A stretch of 64,000 nucleotides of DNA from Stygiobacter sp. RIFOXYC2_FULL_38_25 (GTDB lineage: Bacteria > Bacteroidota > Ignavibacteria > Ignavibacteriales > Melioribacteraceae). This document shows positions 5,751 to 19,770 of this stretch, piece by piece. A program made the translations under genes and the position numbers. Each line of letters begins with the position of its first letter. Within the stretch, counting starts at the first letter, position 1. The notes beneath the pieces were generated by a model that saw only the letters and a list, made by a program, of their open reading frames with translations, made no database searches and was not told the origin of the DNA. The DNA is taken from the NCBI GenBank assembly GCA_001803165.1, contig MHAZ01000006.1, forward strand, positions 249,428-313,427, given 5' to 3'.

Positions 5751-6781
5751 GAATCATATCGTCACCACTGGCATTTGTTTACGCTGTAATCATCCGGATG
5801 AGGAATTTCCTTTTTAACAAAAAGATTTTCAGCGCTGCAAAAGTAAATGCCAAAGTAATTTCGATTGGGAATATTACAGTTGGCGGCTCCGGTAAAACTC
5901 CGGCAGTTCTAATGCTTGGCAAAATGCTGAAAGAAAATGGAAAAAAGATTGGAGTATTAAGCCGAGGTTACGGCAGAAATTCTTTTGGTTATGTTTTTGT
6001 TAGTGATGGTAATGAAATTAAAAGCAGCGTTGAAAAGTGCGGCGATGAAATTATTCTTGTCGCCGGTGAGCTAAAAATTCCAACCGCAGTTTGTGAAAAA
6101 CGCGCTAAAGGAGCTGCACAGTTACTCAAAGATGCATCTGTTGATACAATAATTTTGGACGATGCTTTTCAGCATAGATGGATTCACAGAGATTTAGATA
6201 TTGTGCTTGTAGATCAAAGGTTTTTAGATAAAGTAGATTTTGTAGAACAAAACCCTATTCCGCTTGGTATGATGCGAGAACCTTTTGAATCTCTTGATCG
6301 TGCGGATATAATCATCATCAATAGAAAGTTTTCTGAGAAAACTGAAGTGCCGGAAAAACTGAAGAGGTATTTCGCCGGTAAAGAAGTTTTTCACGGTTAT
6401 TACTCTTCGCAAGGAATTTTTGATGTAAAATCTCACAAGTCTTTTGCGATAGAAGATTTTCAAGGACAGAAAAGTTTAGTGGTTTGCGGAATTGCGAAAC
6501 CTTACTCGTTCTTAAACATACTCGAGAGAAACAAGATAGATATTACAAACAAGCTTTTGTATCCTGATCATGCAAATTACACTACAGCAGAAGTTCAAGA
6601 AATTAGAAAGATGTTTTACGATACAAACTCTCACTCGGTATTAACAACGCACAAAGATGCGGTTAAGCTAACCAACTTCCGGAAAGAGCTTGATGATATT
6701 GACATCTACTATTTGAAGATAGATTTGAAAATTGAAGAACAAGAAAAATTTAATGCGCTTGTTCTTGGTTCATTGAAATAA
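5735..6781 (+). CDS. lpxK: Tetraacyldisaccharide 4'-kinase
   Basis: LpxK (348 aa) phosphorylates the 4' position of the lipid A disaccharide at the inner membrane using ATP. An N-terminal hydrophobic helix is followed by the Walker A motif GGSGKTP at residues 50-56, LSRGYGR shortly after, and the LDDAFQHR block near residue 140; length and motif order are those of the family. The start overlaps the preceding gene by 16 bases. It is the last gene of the smc-to-lpxK run; about 158 bases then separate it from ppdK. Confidence 0.96.
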   Translation: MLEFLRIISSPLAFVYAVIIRMRNFLFNKKIFSAAKVNAKVISIGNITVGGSGKTPAVLMLGKMLKENGKKIGVLSRGYGRNSFGYVFVSDGNEIKSSVEKCGDEIILVAGELKIPTAVCEKRAKGAAQLLKDASVDTIILDDAFQHRWIHRDLDIVLVDQRFLDKVDFVEQNPIPLGMMREPFESLDRADIIIINRKFSEKTEVPEKLKRYFAGKEVFHGYYSSQGIFDVKSHKSFAIEDFQGQKSLVVCGIAKPYSFLNILERNKIDITNKLLYPDHANYTTAEVQEIRKMFYDTNSHSVLTTHKDAVKLTNFRKELDDIDIYYLKIDLKIEEQEKFNALVLGSLK

Positions 6782-9901: not shown

Positions 9902-10939
9902 ATGAAACTATCCGATTTCAAATATAATTTACCAAAAACAGCAATTGCTAAGCACCCGGCAAATCCGCGCGACAAAGCCAAAATGATGGTGATGAACCGC
10001 GCCGATCAAAGTATTGAAAGTTACAAGTTTTCCGATATTACAGATTTCGTACAAAAAGGTGATGTTGTTGTTGTGAACAAAAGCAAAGTAATGCAAGCCC
10101 GCCTTTTCGGTAAGAAAGAACGCACAAACGCAAAGATTGAAGTCTTTGTGTTGCGCGAACTGAACAAAGAAGAAAACATTTGGGATGTTATTGTTGATCC
10201 GGCAAGAAAAGTCCGTATCGGCAATAGAATCTATTTCAACGATAAACTTTGGTGCGAAGTAATTGATAACACAACATCACGCGGAAGAACTGTTCGCTTT
10301 AATGAAGATGCCGGTGATATTTTTAAGGCGATCGAAAAAATTGGGCATACTCCTCTGCCGCCATACATTAAGCGTGATGCCGTTGCTAAAGACCGGGAAG
10401 ACTATCAAACTATTTTTGCGGAGATTGATGGCTCTGTTGCTGCACCAACTGCCGGCTTACACTTTACTCCAACTCTCGTTAAGAAGTTAGAGAAAATGGG
10501 AGTTAAAACTGTTCCGGTTATTCTTCATATTGGACTCGGCACTTTCCGTCCGGTAGAAGTTGAAGACTTAACCAAACACAGAATGGATTCCGAATATTTC
10601 GAAGTTCCTTCTGAAACAGCTGAAGTGATTAACACAGCTCTCAAGAACAAGAAAAATGTTTTTGTAGTTGGAACAAGCACCTGTCGTGCATTGGAAAGCA
10701 GCGTAACGGCTGATGGATTGGCAAAGCCAAATTTCGGCTGGACAGATAAATTCATCTTCCCACCGTACGATTTTAAAGTAACTAAAAAATTGATAACCAA
10801 CTTCCACGCACCGGAATCTACCCTTCTGATGTTAGCCGGCGCATTTAGCGGTTACGATTTTCTAATGAAAGCTTACAAGAAAGCACAAAAGGATGGTTAC
10901 CGTTTCTTGAGTTACGGTGACGCAATGCTTATTCTGTGA
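9902..10939 (+). CDS. queA: S-adenosylmethionine:tRNA ribosyltransferase-isomerase
   Basis: QueA (345 aa, family length) transfers and isomerises the ribosyl moiety of SAM onto 7-aminomethyl-7-deazaguanine at tRNA position 34 to give epoxyqueuosine. It begins MKLSDFKYNLPKTAIAKHP, and contains the conserved VAAPTAGLHFT and HIGLGTFRPV blocks and, near the end, TNFHAPESTLLMLAGAF. A clear GAGGAG precedes the ATG. The next gene (ispD) begins one base after the stop, so the two are co-transcribed. No tgt or other queuosine gene is in the window. Confidence 0.97.
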   Translation: MKLSDFKYNLPKTAIAKHPANPRDKAKMMVMNRADQSIESYKFSDITDFVQKGDVVVVNKSKVMQARLFGKKERTNAKIEVFVLRELNKEENIWDVIVDPARKVRIGNRIYFNDKLWCEVIDNTTSRGRTVRFNEDAGDIFKAIEKIGHTPLPPYIKRDAVAKDREDYQTIFAEIDGSVAAPTAGLHFTPTLVKKLEKMGVKTVPVILHIGLGTFRPVEVEDLTKHRMDSEYFEVPSETAEVINTALKNKKNVFVVGTSTCRALESSVTADGLAKPNFGWTDKFIFPPYDFKVTKKLITNFHAPESTLLMLAGAFSGYDFLMKAYKKAQKDGYRFLSYGDAMLIL

Positions 10940-10940
10940 T

Positions 10941-11621
10941 ATGAAAACGTATGTTATTATTCCTTCTGGAGGTTTGGGTAAGCGGACTAACGCGCCGCTT
11001 CCCAAACAATATTTACAGTTTGCCGGCAAAGAACTTATCGCATATACTCTGCAAGTTTTCCAATCCTCAAAGCATGTTGATGAGATAGTTGTTGCCGCGC
11101 AAAGCAGTTTCTTCCCTCTTCTTGAATCTATCAAGCAAAATTTTAGTCTTACAAAATTTACTTGCCTGGTTGAAGGTGGCGAAGAGAGACAACACTCGGT
11201 GTTCAACGCGCTTAAATCTCTCAAGGCTGAAGAAGATGATATTATTATCATTCACGATGCAGTTCGTCCTTTGCTAACCAAGGAAATTTTATATGATTCA
11301 ATCCAGACTGCTAAGCAATATGGAGCTGCTGTTGTGGCGCTTAAGGCAAAAGACACATTGATTCGCGGCAACGAAACTGTTTTAGATTATGTTGACCGTT
11401 CCGAATATTATTACGCTCAAACCCCACAAGTTTTTAGGTACAAGATTATTATGGATGCTATGAAGAAAGCTAAGGCAGAGAATTTTATCGGGACAGATGA
11501 ATCTATGCTGGTTCACCGTGCCGGTTATGAAGTTAAAATTGTTAATGGTTCTTCTTTGAATTTCAAAGTAACAACCGACGAAGACATACATATATTATCG
11601 TTGATATTGAAATCTTTTTAA
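10941..11621 (+). CDS. ispD: 2-C-methyl-D-erythritol 4-phosphate cytidylyltransferase
   Basis: IspD (226 aa from ATG 10941) makes CDP-methylerythritol from CTP and MEP in the non-mevalonate isoprenoid pathway. The nucleotide-binding start VIIPSGGLGKR with PLPKQYL, the EGGEERQHSVFNAL block, HDAVRPLL, and TPQVFR match the family. A longer frame back to 10917 lies inside queA and lacks conserved residues, so the ATG one base after the queA stop is preferred. IspF is neither fused nor adjacent. Confidence 0.95.
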   Translation: MKTYVIIPSGGLGKRTNAPLPKQYLQFAGKELIAYTLQVFQSSKHVDEIVVAAQSSFFPLLESIKQNFSLTKFTCLVEGGEERQHSVFNALKSLKAEEDDIIIIHDAVRPLLTKEILYDSIQTAKQYGAAVVALKAKDTLIRGNETVLDYVDRSEYYYAQTPQVFRYKIIMDAMKKAKAENFIGTDESMLVHRAGYEVKIVNGSSLNFKVTTDEDIHILSLILKSF

Positions 11622-11634
11622 TAGCAAAATCCAA

Positions 11635-11665
11635 TTGTTTATAAAAAACCTTTTCTATAATTTTA
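11635..11665 (+). promoter_or_regulatory. Putative promoter of plsY-gpsA
   Basis: TTG (11635-11637) is followed after 18-20 bases by TATAATTTTA, which fits either a TAnnTTTG-like or a TATAAT-like element. It lies in the 68-base ispD-plsY gap, 25 bases before the plsY start. Prediction only. Confidence 0.4.
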
Positions 11666-11689
11666 GCTCAACATATAGGTAGATATACA

Positions 11690-12358
11690 ATGCTCAACCT
11701 CTTTTTCGTAATCATTCTCTCTTACTTAGTAGGTTCCATCCCGACTAGTATTTTGATTAGTAAATTAGTTCGCGGCATAGATATAAGAAACTACGGCAGC
11801 GGCAACGCCGGCGGTTCTAACGTATTTCGTGTGCTCGGCTGGAAGTGGGGAATTCTCACAATCATCCTAGATGCATTAAAAGGCGCAATTGCTGTTATTG
11901 TTGTCGCGCGTTTCTATCTAGATAGATTTCCTTTCAATAACGTAACTCCTTTTGATGATTTCACGCTTGTGCAGATTATATGCGGTGTGGCTGCTGTTAT
12001 GGGACACGTTTGGACTTTATTCGCCGGATTTAAAGGAGGCAAAGGTATTGCAACCGGTCTTGGTGTATTAATTATGATTGTAACTGTTGATATGGCTTTG
12101 GCTCTTGGTGTTTTCTTTTTAGTAGTTGGTTTATCACGTTATATCTCTTTAGGTTCGCTTGCAGCGGCTGTTGCTGTTCCACTTATCATGATTATCCGCG
12201 AAAACATTTTCGGCGTAGATATAAGAGGATACCATACAATTTTACCTTTTGCAATTCTTTTAGCGCTGTTTGTTATCTATACTCATAGAGCAAACATCGG
12301 GAGATTGCTGGAAGGCAGCGAAAGAAAGGTTTCATTTTCAAAAAAGAAATCTGCATAA
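11690..12358 (+). CDS. plsY: Acyl-phosphate:glycerol-3-phosphate acyltransferase
   Basis: PlsY (222 aa) is a polytopic inner-membrane enzyme that acylates glycerol-3-phosphate from acyl-phosphate, the first step of phospholipid synthesis. The three loop motifs are recognisable: SYLVGSIPTS near the N-terminus, GSGNAGGSNVFRVLG near residues 36-50, and GFKGGKGIATGLG near residue 113, with about five hydrophobic helices. The stop abuts the gpsA ATG (12358/12359), so acceptor supply and acylation are coupled. Confidence 0.96.
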   Translation: MLNLFFVIILSYLVGSIPTSILISKLVRGIDIRNYGSGNAGGSNVFRVLGWKWGILTIILDALKGAIAVIVVARFYLDRFPFNNVTPFDDFTLVQIICGVAAVMGHVWTLFAGFKGGKGIATGLGVLIMIVTVDMALALGVFFLVVGLSRYISLGSLAAAVAVPLIMIIRENIFGVDIRGYHTILPFAILLALFVIYTHRANIGRLLEGSERKVSFSKKKSA

Positions 12359-13360: not shown

Positions 13361-13442
13361 AGTCCCATTCAGCTTCTAAACCCAAGACAACTGCCGCTTT
13401 TTTATTTATATTTCTTTCAGCGAATAACTATTTCCGTGTTTG

Positions 13443-15620
13443 ATGCAGAGTGAATTATCAAAATCGGTTCAATACTTAAAGTCAATCGGACCAAAGAGGG
13501 CGGAATCCTTTTCCAAAATTGGAATCAATACAATCCAAGATTTGCTTTATTACTTCCCTTCCAAATATTTGGACAGAACAAATATTTTATCATCAATAAG
13601 GATTGTTCAGTATGTAGTTGACGGTTACGTAGGAGAAGTTACTATTCTTGGAAAGGTTGTTGACACCGAAACACATTACTACAACAAGAAACAGATATTC
13701 AAAGTAAGGATGAAAGATGCTACCGGTTTCTTTGAATGTGTCTGGTTTCAAGGAGCCAAGTTCTTTAAGGATTTATTCCACGAAGGAGACTACTTCGCTG
13801 TTTCAGCAAAGCCGGTAATAACAAAATATGGTCATCTCCAATTCGCTCATCCCGATTTTGACAGACTTGTGGAAGCCGAATCAAAAGAATTTTTGAACAC
13901 CGGGAAAATTATTCCCTTCTACCGCTTGCCTAAACAGTTAAAAGAAACAAACATCGGCGACTTTAGCCTCCGCAGAATAATTTCATCAGCCGTAGAATTA
14001 TACTCGGGCAAAATTGAAGAGACTCTTCCCAAAAATATTTTGAATGAACATGCGCTATCCGGCTTGAATGATACAATCCACTCTCTTCACTCCCCAAATA
14101 ATTTTGATGAACTGAGCAAAGCCCGGCACAGAATGAAGTTTGAGGAGATTTTCTACTTTGAATGTATGGTTGCACTAAGAAAGAAGTTGTTTGCTACAAA
14201 ATCAGTTGGTCTTTCATTCAAAACAAAATCCGCTCCATTGAAACAATTCTTAAGCTCCTTGCCATTTGAATTGACGGCATCACAGTTAAAAGTTCTTTCG
14301 GAAATCCGAAAGGATCTAGAAAGCAGTTCTCCAATGAACCGATTACTGCAAGGAGATGTTGGTAGCGGCAAAACGATAGTTGCCCTCATCAGCATCATTA
14401 TAGCTGTTACTAACGGATACCAATGCGCATTCATGGCACCGACCGAAATTTTAGCCGACCAGCATTTCAAAAGAATTTCTAAAATGCTAGAACCACTCGG
14501 ATTCAAAACAGAAATTCTAATTGGCGGGCAAAAGAAATCCGAACGAGATGTAATTCTCGCGAACATTGCCTCAGGCAAAATAAATTTAGTTATTGGAACT
14601 CATGCACTCATAGAAGAGAATGTCAAGTTCAAATCCCTTGGCATGGTTGTAATTGACGAGCAACACCGTTTTGGTGTGTTACAGCGTTCACAATTATCTA
14701 AGAAAGGAACCATTCCAAATGTTTTGGTTATGACTGCAACTCCAATCCCAAGAACTCTCTCAATGACTTTATATGGCGACCTTGATGTCTCAACAATTGA
14801 TGAAATGCCCAAAAACAGAAAACCTATAAAGACAATTTTGCGCGGAGAGAATAAACTGCCGGCAATTTTTGATTTCGTTAAAAAGAAAGCTTCTGAAGGT
14901 TACCAATCGTTCATTGTTTATCCGCTTGTAGAAGAATCTGAAAAGCTGGAACTGAAAGCAGCTGTTAAACATTTTGAAGAACTTCAGAATGAACACCTCA
15001 AAGAACTTCGCGTTGCACTAATCCACGGTAGGATGAAGTGGCAGGAAAAAGAAAACATAATGAATGAATTTGCCGCCGGAAAGTTTGATGTATTGGTTTC
15101 GACCACTGTAATTGAGGTCGGAATTGACATACCTAACGCAAATATAATCATCATTAACGATGCCCACCGCTTCGGATTATCTCAATTGCATCAGTTGCGT
15201 GGAAGAGTCGGCAGAGGCAACCAGCAAGCGTATTGTATTCTTGTTACAAAAGATGAATGGGCTGCAAGGTCAAGCCAGTTTAATTTTACCGAAGAGTTTT
15301 TTTCACCGGCACAGATTGAGAAAAATAAAGCGTCAATAAGATTAAATGCTATGGTGAAAACCAATAACGGATTCGAACTTTCTGAAATTGATTTCAAGTT
15401 ACGCGGACCGGGAAATATTTTCGGAACAGAACAGAGCGGCTTGCCAGAATTCAAACACATCAATATCGTTGAAGACGTGCAACTGATTCAACAAGCAAAA
15501 GATTGCGCGTTCGGAATCATCAACAGCGATCCGGATTTGATCCGCGAAAATAATCTCGTTGTAAAAAATACTTTGAAAGAAAAATATTCTTCCAAAGTTC
15601 TCCTCTCACACATCGCGTAA
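13443..15620 (+). CDS. recG: ATP-dependent DNA helicase RecG
   Basis: RecG (about 725 aa) remodels stalled forks and branched DNA. The N-terminal wedge/OB-fold region (about residues 1-250) is followed by a superfamily 2 helicase: Walker A GDVGSGKT, Walker B variant VIDEQHRFGV, MTATPIPRTL, and motif VI QLRGRVGRG, with a C-terminal domain containing LRGPGNIFGTEQSG. ATG 13443 is chosen over the TTG immediately before it. It is transcribed alone or with gpsA, 80 bases upstream. Confidence 0.96.
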   Translation: MQSELSKSVQYLKSIGPKRAESFSKIGINTIQDLLYYFPSKYLDRTNILSSIRIVQYVVDGYVGEVTILGKVVDTETHYYNKKQIFKVRMKDATGFFECVWFQGAKFFKDLFHEGDYFAVSAKPVITKYGHLQFAHPDFDRLVEAESKEFLNTGKIIPFYRLPKQLKETNIGDFSLRRIISSAVELYSGKIEETLPKNILNEHALSGLNDTIHSLHSPNNFDELSKARHRMKFEEIFYFECMVALRKKLFATKSVGLSFKTKSAPLKQFLSSLPFELTASQLKVLSEIRKDLESSSPMNRLLQGDVGSGKTIVALISIIIAVTNGYQCAFMAPTEILADQHFKRISKMLEPLGFKTEILIGGQKKSERDVILANIASGKINLVIGTHALIEENVKFKSLGMVVIDEQHRFGVLQRSQLSKKGTIPNVLVMTATPIPRTLSMTLYGDLDVSTIDEMPKNRKPIKTILRGENKLPAIFDFVKKKASEGYQSFIVYPLVEESEKLELKAAVKHFEELQNEHLKELRVALIHGRMKWQEKENIMNEFAAGKFDVLVSTTVIEVGIDIPNANIIIINDAHRFGLSQLHQLRGRVGRGNQQAYCILVTKDEWAARSSQFNFTEEFFSPAQIEKNKASIRLNAMVKTNNGFELSEIDFKLRGPGNIFGTEQSGLPEFKHINIVEDVQLIQQAKDCAFGIINSDPDLIRENNLVVKNTLKEKYSSKVLLSHIA

Positions 15621-15687
15621 ATTTTTCTTTGCATCTACAAACATCATTCCAAAAAATTTTAAAAAATATTTTTGTGACAACAAAATG

Positions 15688-15717
15688 TTGCGAATTTTTT
15701 TATATGTGTTATATTTC
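15688..15717 (+). promoter_or_regulatory. Putative promoter of the ATP-grasp/KamA cassette
   Basis: TTG 15688-15690, a 19-base spacer and TATATTTC 15710-15717 closely resemble the Bacteroidota consensus. The predicted start is near 15724, followed by AAGGAAG (15734-15740). The promoter lies inside the longest reading frame of the first cassette gene, which argues that its ATG at 15685 is not the real start. Confidence 0.45.
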
Positions 15718-15744
15718 GTGCAGAAAATTTTGAAAGGAAGTGTT

Positions 15745-16821
15745 ATTAGTTCTTCTTCGCTAAATAAAAAATTAAAAGTAGCCCTCACATATAATGTTAA
15801 GCCGGAAGAAAACATTACCGGTGAACGAACACCTCTCTCTTCTAACTCAACTTCACTAAAAAATTTCAACGACACTTACGCAGAATGGGATTCGATTGAT
15901 ACGGTCAACGCAATTAGAGACGCACTTCTACTGAAACATGATGTAACTATGATTGAAGCAAACGAAAACGCATTTGAAAAATTTCGCTCGCTGAAACCGG
16001 AAATTGTTTTTAACGTTGCCGAGTGCGCTCATGGTTCAAGTCGTGAAGCACAAATACCGGCAATGCTTGATATGTTACGAATTCCATATTCCGGTTCCGA
16101 TCCTCTTACGCTTACTACTTGTTTAGATAAAGCAAGAACAAAAGAAGTTCTCACTTACCACAACATTCCAACTTCCAGATTTTTACTGGTTGAGACCTTG
16201 GCTGATCTTGCAAATTTCGACTTAACATTTCCGGTTATCATGAAACCGGTTGCTGAAGGCTCGAGCAAAGGAATTTTTGATACTTCATTTGTAAAAAACT
16301 TTGATGAACTCAAAACCCGGATAACTGAATTATTCGCTGAGTACAATCAGCCGTTTCTTGTTGAGGAATTTTTACCCGGACGCGAGTTTACCGTTGCTAT
16401 GATTGGGAATAACGGAGATACACAAATTCTGCCGATAATAGAATTAAATCTGCACGAGCTCCCATCTCATCTTGCACCAATTTACTCTTACGAGGCAAAA
16501 TGGGTCGTTGACACAAAAGATAACCCTCTAAATATTTTTTCTTGCCCGGCAAAGATTAGTGAAGAGTTAGCTTTCAAGATTTCCGAAGTTGCTATGAGAA
16601 CTTTCAAAGTTCTTAGATGTAAAGATTGGAGCCGCATTGATATTCGTTTAGATGCCGGCGGTGAACCGAATGTAATTGAAATTAATCCTCTTCCAGGAGT
16701 TCTTCCCGATCCCGAGGATAATTCTTGTTTCCCTAAAGCGGCAAGAACTGCCGGACTCTCTTACTCAGACATGATAAACAAAGTTTTGGAATCAGCAGCC
16801 AAAAGGCACAACCTGATATGA
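15745..16821 (+). CDS. D-alanine--D-alanine ligase-like ATP-grasp protein 1
   Basis: An ATP-grasp ligase of the Ddl type, about 358 residues from position 15745. Visible: start of the first Rossmann-like domain (KLKVALTYN), VFNVAECAHGSSREAQIPAMLD, ATP-lid segment EGSSKGIFD, LVEEFLPGREFTVAM, and the Mg-binding end RIDIRLDAGG then VIEINPLPG. The frame extends back to ATG 15685, but a promoter-like sequence lies there. A SD-like GGAAG stands just before an in-frame ATT at 15745, which would place the start close to the family N-terminus; TTG 15730 is the alternative. It overlaps the next ATP-grasp gene (ATGA). Such enzymes join amino acids through an acyl-phosphate; whether the substrate is D-Ala is unknown. 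Confidence 0.85.
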   Translation: MSSSSLNKKLKVALTYNVKPEENITGERTPLSSNSTSLKNFNDTYAEWDSIDTVNAIRDALLLKHDVTMIEANENAFEKFRSLKPEIVFNVAECAHGSSREAQIPAMLDMLRIPYSGSDPLTLTTCLDKARTKEVLTYHNIPTSRFLLVETLADLANFDLTFPVIMKPVAEGSSKGIFDTSFVKNFDELKTRITELFAEYNQPFLVEEFLPGREFTVAMIGNNGDTQILPIIELNLHELPSHLAPIYSYEAKWVVDTKDNPLNIFSCPAKISEELAFKISEVAMRTFKVLRCKDWSRIDIRLDAGGEPNVIEINPLPGVLPDPEDNSCFPKAARTAGLSYSDMINKVLESAAKRHNLI

Positions 16822-17876
16822 TGCTTGATCACAAAATATTGATTTGCTTCAATGAGCCGACACGTTACTACGATAATTATCTTGGTAAGGACACAGATGA
16901 CCATAACGAAGACAATGATTTATCCGAGCGTGAATTCTTAAAACAGATTGAATCAATAAGAAAACTCTTAAAAAGGAAATACGCTTTTGTTGAAACTCTG
17001 GCAATCAATAGAAACGTTAGAGACGCAATTAAAAAGATTACAGCTATCTCTCCCGATGTAATTTTTAATTTCGTTGAATCCATCGAAGGCAATTCCGATT
17101 ACGAAAGTTACATTGCCGGGGTTTTTGATCTTCTGGGATTTCAATACACCGGGAATAGCGCAATGACGCTTGGTAACTGTTTGCAGAAATCTAAAACCAA
17201 GCAGATACTTCAAGCACACGGTGTTAGAACCCCCGCACATTTTCTTGCAGAAGTTGGGCAAGTTCCTTCCAAGAATAAATTTAGACTGAACTTTCCGGTA
17301 ATTCTTAAACTCGCGAGAGAAGACGCAAGCATTGGCATTTCCGAATTCTCGGTAGTGAACAACTACGAAGACTTAAGAGCCCGGCTTAATTATCTGTTCA
17401 CTTCCTTTTCTCAAGAAGTTATTATAGAAGAATATATAGACGGACGCGAATTGAATATTGCAATTCTCGGAGATCAAGTTCTGCCGATTTCCGAAATTAC
17501 ATTTGATACTTTGCCGGATGGACTTCCCAAAATAGTTACATACGAAGCCAAGTGGTCTGCCGATAGTGTTTACTTTAAGAGTACAATTCCCAAATGCCCG
17601 GCAAAATTAGAACCGCGTTTGGAAGAGAAAGTTAAAAAGATGGCTATCGAAGCTTACGACGCTTTAGATTGCCGTGATTACGTTCGTGTTGATATACGTT
17701 TGAACAGCAAGCATGTACCGTATGTTATTGAAGTTAATCCCAATCCGGATATTTCTCCTGACACTGGTTTTGTACGCAGCGCCGCAGCAGCCGGAATTGG
17801 TTACGAAGAACTTTTATATAGAATTTCATCCTTCGCCTTAATGAGAAACAGTTATGATACGCAAGCTGCTAGCTGA
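16818..17876 (+). CDS. D-alanine--D-alanine ligase-like ATP-grasp protein 2
   Basis: A second, diverged ATP-grasp ligase (352 aa), paralogous to the gene just upstream and overlapping it by four bases (ATG 16818; ATG 16821 is also possible). Parallels: VIFNFVESIEGNSDYES, LLGFQYTGNSAMTL, ILKLAREDASIGIS in place of the usual GSS lid, IIEEYIDGRELNIAIL, and RVDIRLNS then VIEVNPNPDISPD at the Mg site. Metal ligands look intact, so it is probably active. Two tandem copies beside an acetyltransferase and an aminomutase suggest two successive ligations in a small peptide-like product rather than cell-wall D-Ala-D-Ala synthesis (inference). Confidence 0.86.
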   Translation: MMLDHKILICFNEPTRYYDNYLGKDTDDHNEDNDLSEREFLKQIESIRKLLKRKYAFVETLAINRNVRDAIKKITAISPDVIFNFVESIEGNSDYESYIAGVFDLLGFQYTGNSAMTLGNCLQKSKTKQILQAHGVRTPAHFLAEVGQVPSKNKFRLNFPVILKLAREDASIGISEFSVVNNYEDLRARLNYLFTSFSQEVIIEEYIDGRELNIAILGDQVLPISEITFDTLPDGLPKIVTYEAKWSADSVYFKSTIPKCPAKLEPRLEEKVKKMAIEAYDALDCRDYVRVDIRLNSKHVPYVIEVNPNPDISPDTGFVRSAAAAGIGYEELLYRISSFALMRNSYDTQAAS

Positions 17877-18327
17877 AGATAGACAACAATTAGTTGATAT
17901 TATTGACGGGACTAATAATTTTAATCCCGAAGAGAAAAGCGTTGCTGTTGAATTGATAGACGAGGCAATTGAAAAACCCAATCATGAGTATTATAATTTG
18001 TATGTTTTTGAGAACGAAGGAAAAATTTTAGGTTATCACTGTGTTGGAAAGCGCGCGCTTACCGACGGAGTGTTCGATTTGTACTGGATAGTTGTTGGAC
18101 CCAACGCTCAAAATCTCGGCGTAGGTAAAAAACTATTGGAACATTCGGAAAATTTTGCAAAGGAAAATAATGGAAGATGGATCTTAGCCGAAACCTCTTC
18201 CAAAGATAGTTACACTGCCACGAGAAATTTTTATTTAAGAAATAATTACTCGATAGTCTCCCAGATAAAAGATTTTTATTCGGTCGGTGATAATCTGATC
18301 GTGTTCGGTAAGTACTTAAGAACTTAA
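17854..18327 (+). CDS. GNAT family N-acetyltransferase
   Basis: A 157-residue single-domain GNAT. It starts with IRKLLAEDRQQL, has the acetyl-CoA pyrophosphate loop VGPNAQNLGVGKKLL near residues 88-102, and ends with an NFYLRNNYSIV strand as in N-acetyltransferases acting on small molecules. The start lies 23 bases inside the preceding ATP-grasp gene. Next to a lysine 2,3-aminomutase it could play the part of AblB, which acetylates beta-lysine in the N-epsilon-acetyl-beta-lysine osmolyte pathway, but it is shorter than typical AblB and the two ligases do not belong to that pathway. Substrate unknown. Confidence 0.88.
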   Translation: MIRKLLAEDRQQLVDIIDGTNNFNPEEKSVAVELIDEAIEKPNHEYYNLYVFENEGKILGYHCVGKRALTDGVFDLYWIVVGPNAQNLGVGKKLLEHSENFAKENNGRWILAETSSKDSYTATRNFYLRNNYSIVSQIKDFYSVGDNLIVFGKYLRT

Positions 18328-18356
18328 AGGGCAATTAAACATAAAGGGCAACTATC

Positions 18357-19577
18357 ATGGAACTCTGGCAGCAAATGATAAGAGACAGCGTTCACTCTGT
18401 CGATCAACTTGTTGAAAAGTTCGGGATTGACAAAACTGTAGCTGAAAATCTGGATGAATTCTTCCAGGCAAGAATCAATCCTTACTATTTATCACTAATC
18501 CGTTATCCGGGCGATCCTATTTGGAAGCAATGTGTACCGGATAGAGCTGAGTTAGACGATATAGAAGGATTCGAAGACCCGCTTCAAGAAGATGCGATGA
18601 GTCCGGTTCCAAACATTACTCACCGTTACCCAGACCGCGCGTTGTTTCTAACAACAAGCCAATGCGGTATGTACTGCCGTTTTTGCACGCGCAAAAGAAA
18701 AGTAGGTAACGCTGATAAAATCTCAATGAAAGAACTTGAGTCGGCTTTCAAGTATCTTGAAAAACATACCGAAATACGGGACGTTGTTATGTCCGGCGGC
18801 GATCCTCTTATGTTAACCGACACAATGCTGGAAAAAATCCTAAAGCGCCTCAGACAAATTCCTCATCTCGAAATTATCCGTATTGGTTCTAAGATGCCTT
18901 GTGTGCTTCCACACCGCATTACACCAAAACTTGTTGAGATGATTAAGAAGTATCACCCGATATATGTTAACACGCATTTCAATCACCCTTGGGAAATCAC
19001 TCCTGAGAGCTCCAAAGCTTGTGAGATGCTCGCTAATGCGGGAATTCCGGTAAGCAACCAAGCTGTGCTTATGAAGGGCGTTAACGATGATGCCGACGTA
19101 ATGAAAGACCTCTTTACAAAACTGCTCAAGATTAGAGTCCGTCCTTACTATTTATATATGGCTGATGAAACACGCGGCGCAAATCATTTCAGAACTTCGC
19201 TTGATAAAGGTCTGGAGATTATGTTTAAGCTGCGCGGACATACAAGCGGATTGGCAGTTCCTCATTTTGTAATTGATGCACCCGGCGGCGGCGGAAAGAT
19301 TCCGGTTCTTCCTCAGTACATTCTACACCGAGATGAAGACCGAGTAGTTATGCGTAATTACAAAAATGAAGTCTATGTTTACCGTGAAGCTCATCTCGAT
19401 CAGAAAGCGGCGAATAATATTCCGGTAGAACTGGTTACTAAGAAAAACGGAAGCAATGGAAACGGTAACGGAAATGGCAATGGCAATGGTTCTAACGGAA
19501 ACGGAGCCTCCAAGAAACCGAAAAATTACAAAGAGAATATTGATGTGCCGGAATTATTTCCGATGAGTAAGAATTAG
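18357..19577 (+). CDS. kamA: Lysine 2,3-aminomutase (KamA family radical SAM)
   Basis: A PLP-dependent radical SAM enzyme converting L-lysine to beta-lysine. The [4Fe-4S] cysteines are C103, C107 and C110 (CGMYCRFC) and the PLP lysine is K314 in DAPGGGGKIP. By comparison with the clostridial enzyme, the carboxylate-binding Arg corresponds to R112 and the two aspartates that hold the lysine side-chain amine correspond to D270 and D307. All are present, so lysine is the likely substrate. Length is 406 aa; EpmB is shorter and there is no efp/epmA here. A Gly/Asn repeat (residues about 364-383) precedes the last conserved-looking segment. Last gene of the cassette, 29 bases after the GNAT gene. 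Confidence 0.93.
   Translation: MELWQQMIRDSVHSVDQLVEKFGIDKTVAENLDEFFQARINPYYLSLIRYPGDPIWKQCVPDRAELDDIEGFEDPLQEDAMSPVPNITHRYPDRALFLTTSQCGMYCRFCTRKRKVGNADKISMKELESAFKYLEKHTEIRDVVMSGGDPLMLTDTMLEKILKRLRQIPHLEIIRIGSKMPCVLPHRITPKLVEMIKKYHPIYVNTHFNHPWEITPESSKACEMLANAGIPVSNQAVLMKGVNDDADVMKDLFTKLLKIRVRPYYLYMADETRGANHFRTSLDKGLEIMFKLRGHTSGLAVPHFVIDAPGGGGKIPVLPQYILHRDEDRVVMRNYKNEVYVYREAHLDQKAANNIPVELVTKKNGSNGNGNGNGNGNGSNGNGASKKPKNYKENIDVPELFPMSKN
19446..19505 (+). repeat. In-frame hexanucleotide-type repeat encoding Asn-Gly
   Basis: Degenerate GGNAAY units encode an (N-G)n stretch with two Ser near the KamA C-terminus. Loss or gain of a unit keeps the frame, so slippage would change linker length, not expression. 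Confidence 0.8.
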
Positions 19578-19609
19578 TATTTAGATATTAGTATTGAGTA
19601 GTTAGATAA

Positions 19610-19640
19610 AATCCCGGCATATTCTGCCGGGATTTTTTTT
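19610..19640 (+). terminator. Rho-independent terminator of the ATP-grasp/KamA cassette
   Basis: A 9-10 bp G+C-rich stem (ATCCCGGCA / TGCCGGGAT) with a 5-base loop is followed by eight T. It lies 33 bases after the kamA stop and closes the transcription unit. Confidence 0.93.
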
Positions 19641-19770
19641 GCACATTTCCATTTGTCGTGAACGGATTAACTTGTTCGACGGTTTATGGCGGACACCACT
19701 CCCAAAAATCATCCAACTTCATAATTACCTCAAAACCGTTATAGCAACAAGTATAGACGTTCTCTGTTCC

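Follow-up and report, generated by a model that had tools for sequence, protein, structure and literature searches.

β-Lysine is an osmolyte precursor, a modification of elongation factor P (EF-P), and a component of antibiotics. In the Nε-acetyl-β-lysine pathway, a lysine 2,3-aminomutase (AblA) is paired with a GNAT acetyltransferase (AblB), and the EpmB/EpmA system uses a KamA-family enzyme as the source of β-lysine for EF-P. Clusters of ATP-grasp amidoligase genes with GNAT and peptidase genes were reportedly described by Iyer and colleagues in 2009. Here we analyzed a 64,000-nucleotide stretch of contig MHAZ01000006.1 from the 4.4 Mb genome of Stygiobacter sp. RIFOXYC2_FULL_38_25 (the window, referred to at its full length). 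It carries a cassette of four codirectional genes, encoding two ATP-grasp ligases (AG1 and AG2), a small GNAT, and a KamA-family lysine 2,3-aminomutase.

The cassette resembles AblA/AblB in that a lysine 2,3-aminomutase adjoins a GNAT, and differs in its two additional ligases. It shares with EpmB/EpmA a KamA-family enzyme as the putative supplier of β-lysine. AG1 and AG2 share the predicted fold and the ATP/Mg residues of DdlA/DdlB, but they fall outside the Ddl clade, and both have Trp in place of Tyr216. Literature searches, with most subscription journals outside their coverage, gave nothing joining these genes among the matches listed, and the cassette is a genuine, conserved combination of known enzyme types that is apparently undescribed in the literature searched.

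The cassette and its conservation

The four genes, as called from open reading frames (ORFs), are the following.

15685–16821, + strand: AG1, an ATP-grasp ligase of predicted Ddl fold; the start is uncertain and the first ~29 residues are unconserved
16818–17876, + strand: AG2, a second ATP-grasp ligase of predicted Ddl fold, with an altered substrate pocket
17854–18327, + strand: a small GNAT N-acetyltransferase, whose closest solved structure is 2r7h
18357–19577, + strand: a KamA-family lysine 2,3-aminomutase whose LAM_C region is shortened and whose tail is rich in Gly, Asn, and Ser

Pfam searches matched PF07478 in both ligases and the radical SAM and LAM_C domains in KamA, and the GNAT scored 43.5 bits against PF13508 (cut-off 27). 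The spacing given in a preliminary description of the window was exact: by the ORF calls, AG1 and AG2 overlap by 4 bases, AG2 and the GNAT gene overlap by 23, and 29 bases separate the GNAT and KamA genes. The four-gene cassette was confirmed as genuine.

We propose, with a probability of about 55%, that the cassette encodes a small-molecule pathway in which the KamA reaction, two ligations, and an acetylation yield an acetylated cationic β-lysine amide. KamA would convert L-lysine into β-lysine. AG1 and AG2 would then form two successive amide bonds through acyl-phosphate activation, at least one of them involving β-lysine, and the GNAT would acetylate a single amine, either on the substrate or on the product. 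We infer the ligase substrates, the order of these steps, the product, and its role.

The preliminary description had suggested a gene-neighborhood comparison, and the four genes do stay together. In a set of 39 related genomes, AG1 was present in 31 (E 1e-95 or better, the threshold for AG1-positive genomes here and in the phylum sample below). Of the 30 other AG1-positive genomes, 27 yielded loci, 28 in all; 27 of these loci keep the order AG1-AG2-GNAT-KamA, and the remaining locus stops within AG2. Among the best 80 loci from named contigs, a set that overlaps the previous one, 75 contain all four genes in this order. Of the five exceptions, four are truncated by a contig end, and the fifth (L187) has the ligases only. 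With the same order in 75/80 loci, the arrangement is therefore more than chance. The 4-base overlap of AG1 and AG2 recurs in 47 of the 70 loci having cleanly called ORFs. The closest named-contig matches belong to Ignavibacteria, Stygiobacter, and Melioribacter, with Kryptonia lower in the list. Among the carriers is Stygiobacter electus 09-Me, by title a strain and no metagenome-assembled genome.

The commonest upstream neighbor is recG, which lies outside the proposed pathway. It is found on the same strand within 1.2 kb upstream in 60 of the 70 loci with enough upstream DNA, which points to long vertical inheritance of the cassette. The cassette pathway is old and stable wherever it is present.

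KamA and the described β-lysine systems

Residues 4–345 of KamA align to the clostridial lysine 2,3-aminomutase 2a5h. The residues named in the preliminary description (C103, C107, C110, R112, D270, D307, and K314) proved correct in this alignment and are invariant in 26 sequences, including that of the window. We take the Arg and the two Asp residues to be the lysine-binding positions of 2a5h. The resulting CCCRDDK pattern was present in 141 of 145 aligned KamA rows, the window's included, although some genes were entered twice. The four rows lacking it are E. coli EpmB, one fragment, and two rows from the window's own phylum in which Gln replaces the first Asp. In these two rows (L092 and L100, perhaps Rhodothermia), KamA is paired with a related ligase, and so this position does vary within the family. 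Consistent with the radical SAM family of KamA, the protein scored 309.7 bits against TIGR00238 (cut-off 199.2), with the CxxxCxxC motif and the pyridoxal phosphate Lys present. Judged by its residues, KamA very probably converts L-lysine into β-lysine.

The Gln-type KamA and ligase pairs lie at 6241–8498 in L100 and at 6424–9577 in L092, both from the phylum of the window genome. The top match of the L100 KamA is an arginine 2,3-aminomutase model, under its cut-off. In the window KamA, a Gly/Asn/Ser-rich low-complexity run at about 19450–19510 replaces most of the LAM_C domain.

The juxtaposition of KamA and a GNAT, as in AblAB, could instead point to an osmolyte pathway, in which N-acetyl-β-lysine or an acetylated β-lysine dipeptide is amassed under salt stress. 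AblB (E 1e-40) was found in none of the 27 AG1-positive genomes of our own-phylum sample and in 11 of the 121 others, so the cassette could substitute for it, but this difference is not significant (p 0.22). Against an osmolyte, the cassette KamA scored 458.6 bits against the AblA model TIGR03820, below the cut-off of 525.4, and the cassette GNAT gave no match to the AblB model TIGR03827. Both cut-offs are passed in G018, a same-family genome that lacks the cassette (AblA 768.6; AblB 338.3 vs 205.1); there, a sodium:solute symporter gene sits between the AblA-type KamA and the AblB-type GNAT genes. We therefore rejected membership in AblAB. Moreover, the osmolyte pathway has no need of two ligases, and several carriers are, by title, metagenome-assembled genomes from groundwater, mine, or fen, although such habitat words are too thin to judge salt. 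We consider an osmolyte role unlikely. The likeness to the KamA/AblB osmolyte pair, drawn in the preliminary description, thus fails as family membership. Its broader reading, in which ligation and acetylation act on β-lysine, fares better: a β-lysine derivative is still the best reading, the cassette is conserved, and neither ligase groups with cell-wall Ddl.

EpmB is also a relative of KamA, and the ligases might attach β-lysine to a protein, as in EF-P β-lysylation or in the manner of RimK. In favor of this, most loci examined in the genomes where AG1 and KamA lie apart (see below) have a ybeY-like ORF close to KamA and an rsmB-like ORF close to AG1, both named by reading. However, KamA scored 246.1 against the EpmB cut-off of 369.3, and EpmA was above the genX cut-off in 0/10 genomes, compared with 2/14 control genomes, which led us to reject EF-P β-lysylation. 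No conserved target protein adjoins the genes either, and protein modification in general appears most improbable.

The two ligases and the GNAT

The AlphaFold models of AG1 and AG2 had pLDDT (predicted local distance difference test) values of 86.9 and 90.6, respectively, and all 50 Foldseek matches listed for each model were Ddl-type ligases. In keeping with the ATP-grasp family, both ligases retain the equivalents of K97, K144, E187, R255, D257, E270, and N272, to which DdlB work assigns ATP, Mg, and oxyanion roles. The substrate pockets have changed. In AG1, Tyr216 is replaced by Trp and Val152 by Lys, with Ser150, Lys215, and Ser281 retained. In AG2, Ser150 is replaced by Ala, Tyr216 by Trp, and Gly276 by Asp, and the Ser281 position is not fixed.

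The best Ddl model scores (185.5 for AG1 and 156.1 for AG2) fell below the cut-off of 243, and no NCBIfam cut-off was reached among the matches listed (25 of 44 models for AG1; 25 of 43 for AG2). In the ligase tree, which the preliminary description had called for, a Ddl clade (100/100) holds E. coli DdlB and the window genome's own Ddl, and neither AG1 nor AG2 groups with it. AG1 forms a clade of its own (98/99), and AG2 is intermixed with its lone paralogues; several forks are weak. Based on the scores and the tree position, we rejected a cell-wall Ddl identity for both ligases.

The ligases could still act on the envelope by attaching β-lysine, or else a dipeptide, to a precursor of the cell wall. 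This would suit their Ddl fold and the Ddl Ser281 and Lys215 equivalents retained in AG1, as well as a glycosyltransferase-like ORF that 17 of 75 loci have downstream, read from the other strand. This ORF is one of the commonest downstream neighbors, together with NAD-kinase-like (31/75) and thioredoxin-like (28/75) ORFs; all three were named by reading the sequences, and all run on the opposite strand. Apart from recG, the cassette has no widely conserved codirectional neighbor, the largest such downstream cluster comprising 5/75 loci, and the genome carries a separate Ddl. Modification of peptidoglycan or the envelope is accordingly very unlikely in our view.

A profile search identified PDB 2r7h (E 1.9e-37) as the closest solved relative of the GNAT. 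It is annotated as a putative D-alanine N-acetyltransferase of the GNAT family, a name that is the depositors' label. Of eight plasmid regions with relatives of the GNAT, the three examined had no annotated ligase alongside; of 19 plasmid records with relatives of AG1, four were examined, one of which had KamA. Large rhizobial plasmids, including pNGR234a, carry AG1-like genes annotated just as ATP-grasp domain proteins (for example, L274 6863–7873 and plasmid matches H9–H18 and H20–H22). The window genome has a third AG2-like ligase gene standing alone (L034 9778–10839, − strand). It is divergent from a gene at 10870–11757 (+ strand) whose product gave a weak peptidase C39 match, and a similar-looking pair, by reading, occurs in L099.

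Co-occurrence of AG1 and KamA

We counted KamA (E 1e-60) in 148 genomes of the window's own phylum, 27 of them AG1-positive, with genomes treated as independent of shared descent. KamA was present in 26 of the 27 AG1-positive genomes compared with 25 of the 121 others. The single AG1-positive genome without KamA (G006) has a contig that stops within the cassette. Five genomes with weaker AG1 matches were counted among the 121, and four of these carry KamA. Within the window's own class, KamA occurred in 21/22 AG1-positive and 0/14 AG1-negative genomes. AG1 and KamA lie at separate sites in five of the 27 AG1-positive genomes.

The association extends to a second phylum, that of the L187 genome, labelled Deltaproteobacteria or Myxococcota. 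An AG1-type match (E 1e-45) was found in 72 of 198 genomes, and KamA in 68 of these 72 compared with 46 of the 126 others.

Alternatively, the genes may be transcribed together while the ligases produce a dipeptide of amino acids that has nothing to do with the KamA product. AG2 paralogues do occur alone elsewhere, and four of the 72 second-phylum genomes with the ligases had no KamA match at E 1e-60. The strong co-occurrence, together with a KamA linkage repeated in several gene orders, argues against this possibility, which we regard as rather improbable.

Polyamine genes beside related ligases

In L187, the ligase pair directly follows genes for a deoxyhypusine-synthase homologue, an arginase-family (agmatinase-type) protein, and a pyruvoyl arginine decarboxylase, as assigned by Pfam. 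We examined 36 second-phylum loci, picked by score and by hand; they come from 35 of the 72 genomes with an AG1-type match. KamA was present in 21 loci, polyamine genes in 12, and neither in three. The KamA-containing orders include AG1-AG2-GNAT-KamA (L226), KamA-AG1-AG2-GNAT, and KamA-AG2 with AG1 ~4–5 kb away. All 12 polyamine-type loci contain the arginine decarboxylase gene (in L224, where the contig ends, as no more than a 51-bit piece), nine the agmatinase-type gene, and seven the deoxyhypusine-synthase homologue (weak in L227); several contigs end there. Five of the 12 include a GNAT, and every one of the 12 genomes encodes KamA elsewhere. In polyamine-linked genomes (L256, L259, L261, L262, and L265), KamA is often preceded by a small ORF resembling, by reading, a MerR regulator.

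According to passages of PMC10407285, the deoxyhypusine-synthase homologue SpeY makes homospermidine, and its gene clusters with those for SpeB and a decarboxylase. The 12 second-phylum loci place the ligase pair after genes of that type. According to the same passages, the decarboxylase there is a SpeD homologue, while here it is PvlArgDC; ligases go unmentioned in them, and no such cluster adjoins the window cassette. The link to polyamine genes is one seen in other genomes and is not visible from the window sequence alone.

The AG1 pocket of the window is the commonest in its own phylum (28/37). It also occurs in 11 of the 12 polyamine-type AG1s, compared with two of 24 other AG1-type rows in the second phylum; thus, the cassette AG1 and the polyamine-type AG1 probably catalyze the same reaction. 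Arginine decarboxylase was found in 21/22 AG1-positive genomes of the own class, compared with 2/14 AG1-negative ones.

A further arrangement occurs on the Thioflavicoccus mobilis plasmid pTHIMO01 (L276 3557–9038), in which genes for a diaminobutyrate transaminase, SbnA, an ornithine-cyclodeaminase-type protein, and an ATP-grasp ligase form a row. KamA, retaining CCCRDDK, adjoins this row on the opposite strand. The row looks like a small natural-product cluster.

Taken together, an acetylated β-lysine amide as the cassette product gains support because AG1 and AG2 keep the catalytic ATP-grasp residues while pocket positions have changed, because the Arg, both Asp, and Lys of KamA are kept, and because KamA co-occurs with AG1 even when the two are apart. 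It gains support, too, because the ligase pair comes after polyamine genes in 12/36 loci, 11 of these 12 with the window's AG1 pocket, and because pTHIMO01 joins diaminobutyrate/diaminopropionate genes, an ATP-grasp gene, and KamA. As the partner of β-lysine, we tentatively favor a polyamine-type or diamino-acid amine, as the most likely of the candidates but at less than even odds. A more specific and doubtful proposal is that the ligase pair is a conserved β-lysyl-polyamine synthetase, found in at least two phyla, that would make an acetylatable β-lysine amide with putrescine or homospermidine.

Several findings weigh against the proposed pathway to an acetylated β-lysine amide. The pockets of 22/24 other second-phylum AG1 rows, most of them KamA-linked, differ from that of the window, as does the pTHIMO01 ligase pocket, and the products may therefore differ. 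Because all polyamine-type AG1s fall in a single clade (99/94), the polyamine linkage arose once and may be a chance adjacency. Within the own phylum, pyruvoyl arginine decarboxylase was found in 26/27 AG1-positive genomes but also in 49/121 others, and its gene lies away from the cassette in all five loci examined, adjoining a tyrS-like ORF (by reading) in four. Occurrence is patchy: AG1 is present in 22 of the 36 genomes sampled from the own class and absent from 14. Given the five genomes with AG1 and KamA at separate sites, the two ligases and the GNAT may not all be necessary in every case, and the co-occurrence counts are uncorrected for shared descent.

The four-gene order persists across many lineages of one bacterial class, and the ligases and KamA recur together in a second phylum. 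If the cassette does make such an amide, it would represent a widespread, unrecognized use of β-lysine, and could tie β-amino acids to polyamine metabolism. A β-lysyl-polyamine synthetase, for its part, would have its genes placed either with KamA or with those for homospermidine; its product would be a new class of cationic metabolite. Acetylation, deacetylation, and β-aminopeptidase partners could then adjust or recycle the β-lysyl-polyamine. S58 enzymes include β-aminopeptidases, and enzymes resembling histone deacetylases (HDACs) include acetylpolyamine amidohydrolases. Candidate hydrolases of these kinds are found near or fused to relatives of the cassette proteins. In G018, an ATP-grasp domain fused to an S58 peptidase is followed by an HDAC-type gene (L037 7906–11063), although the tree placement of this ligase is unsure. 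A GNAT/HDAC fusion is located between the ligases and a GNAT in L039, an HDAC-GNAT fusion gene adjoins AG1-AG2-KamA in L228, and L269 has an amidohydrolase together with a C26 peptidase. These S58, HDAC-like, and C26 hydrolases could cleave acetyl-amine or β-peptide bonds, and their presence also favors the proposed amide.

Flanking features

Three further features flank the cassette.

13440–15620, + strand: recG
15680–15720, + strand: a promoter-like stretch (TTGCGA ... TATATTTCG) upstream of the probable AG1 start
19608–19640, + strand: an intrinsic terminator hairpin and T run, based on folding energy

The strong terminator noted in the preliminary description was borne out, as 19600–19645 folds at −21.2 kcal/mol (z −6.68) and 0/200 shuffles were equally stable. 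A terminator-pattern scan of the region gave no entry for the hairpin after KamA, probably because the stem absorbs part of the T run.

The family consensus in the alignment excludes AG1 residues 1–29. The true start is therefore uncertain and probably lies downstream of 15685. The promoter proposed in the preliminary description held in part. Promoter-pattern matches around the cassette were at chance level (17 vs 15.7 ± 3.9 expected), and the promoter-like hexamers at 15688–15715 fall within the ORF starting at ATG 15685; however, TTGC and GTTATATTTC (within 15688–15717) are unchanged in the window and four related loci.

We also rejected a defense system, for which PADLOC gave just weak radical-SAM matches to KamA, and a mobile element, since the cassette DNA had no plasmid match. 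One IMG/VR contig (L190) encodes a relative of AG1 at 37 percent.

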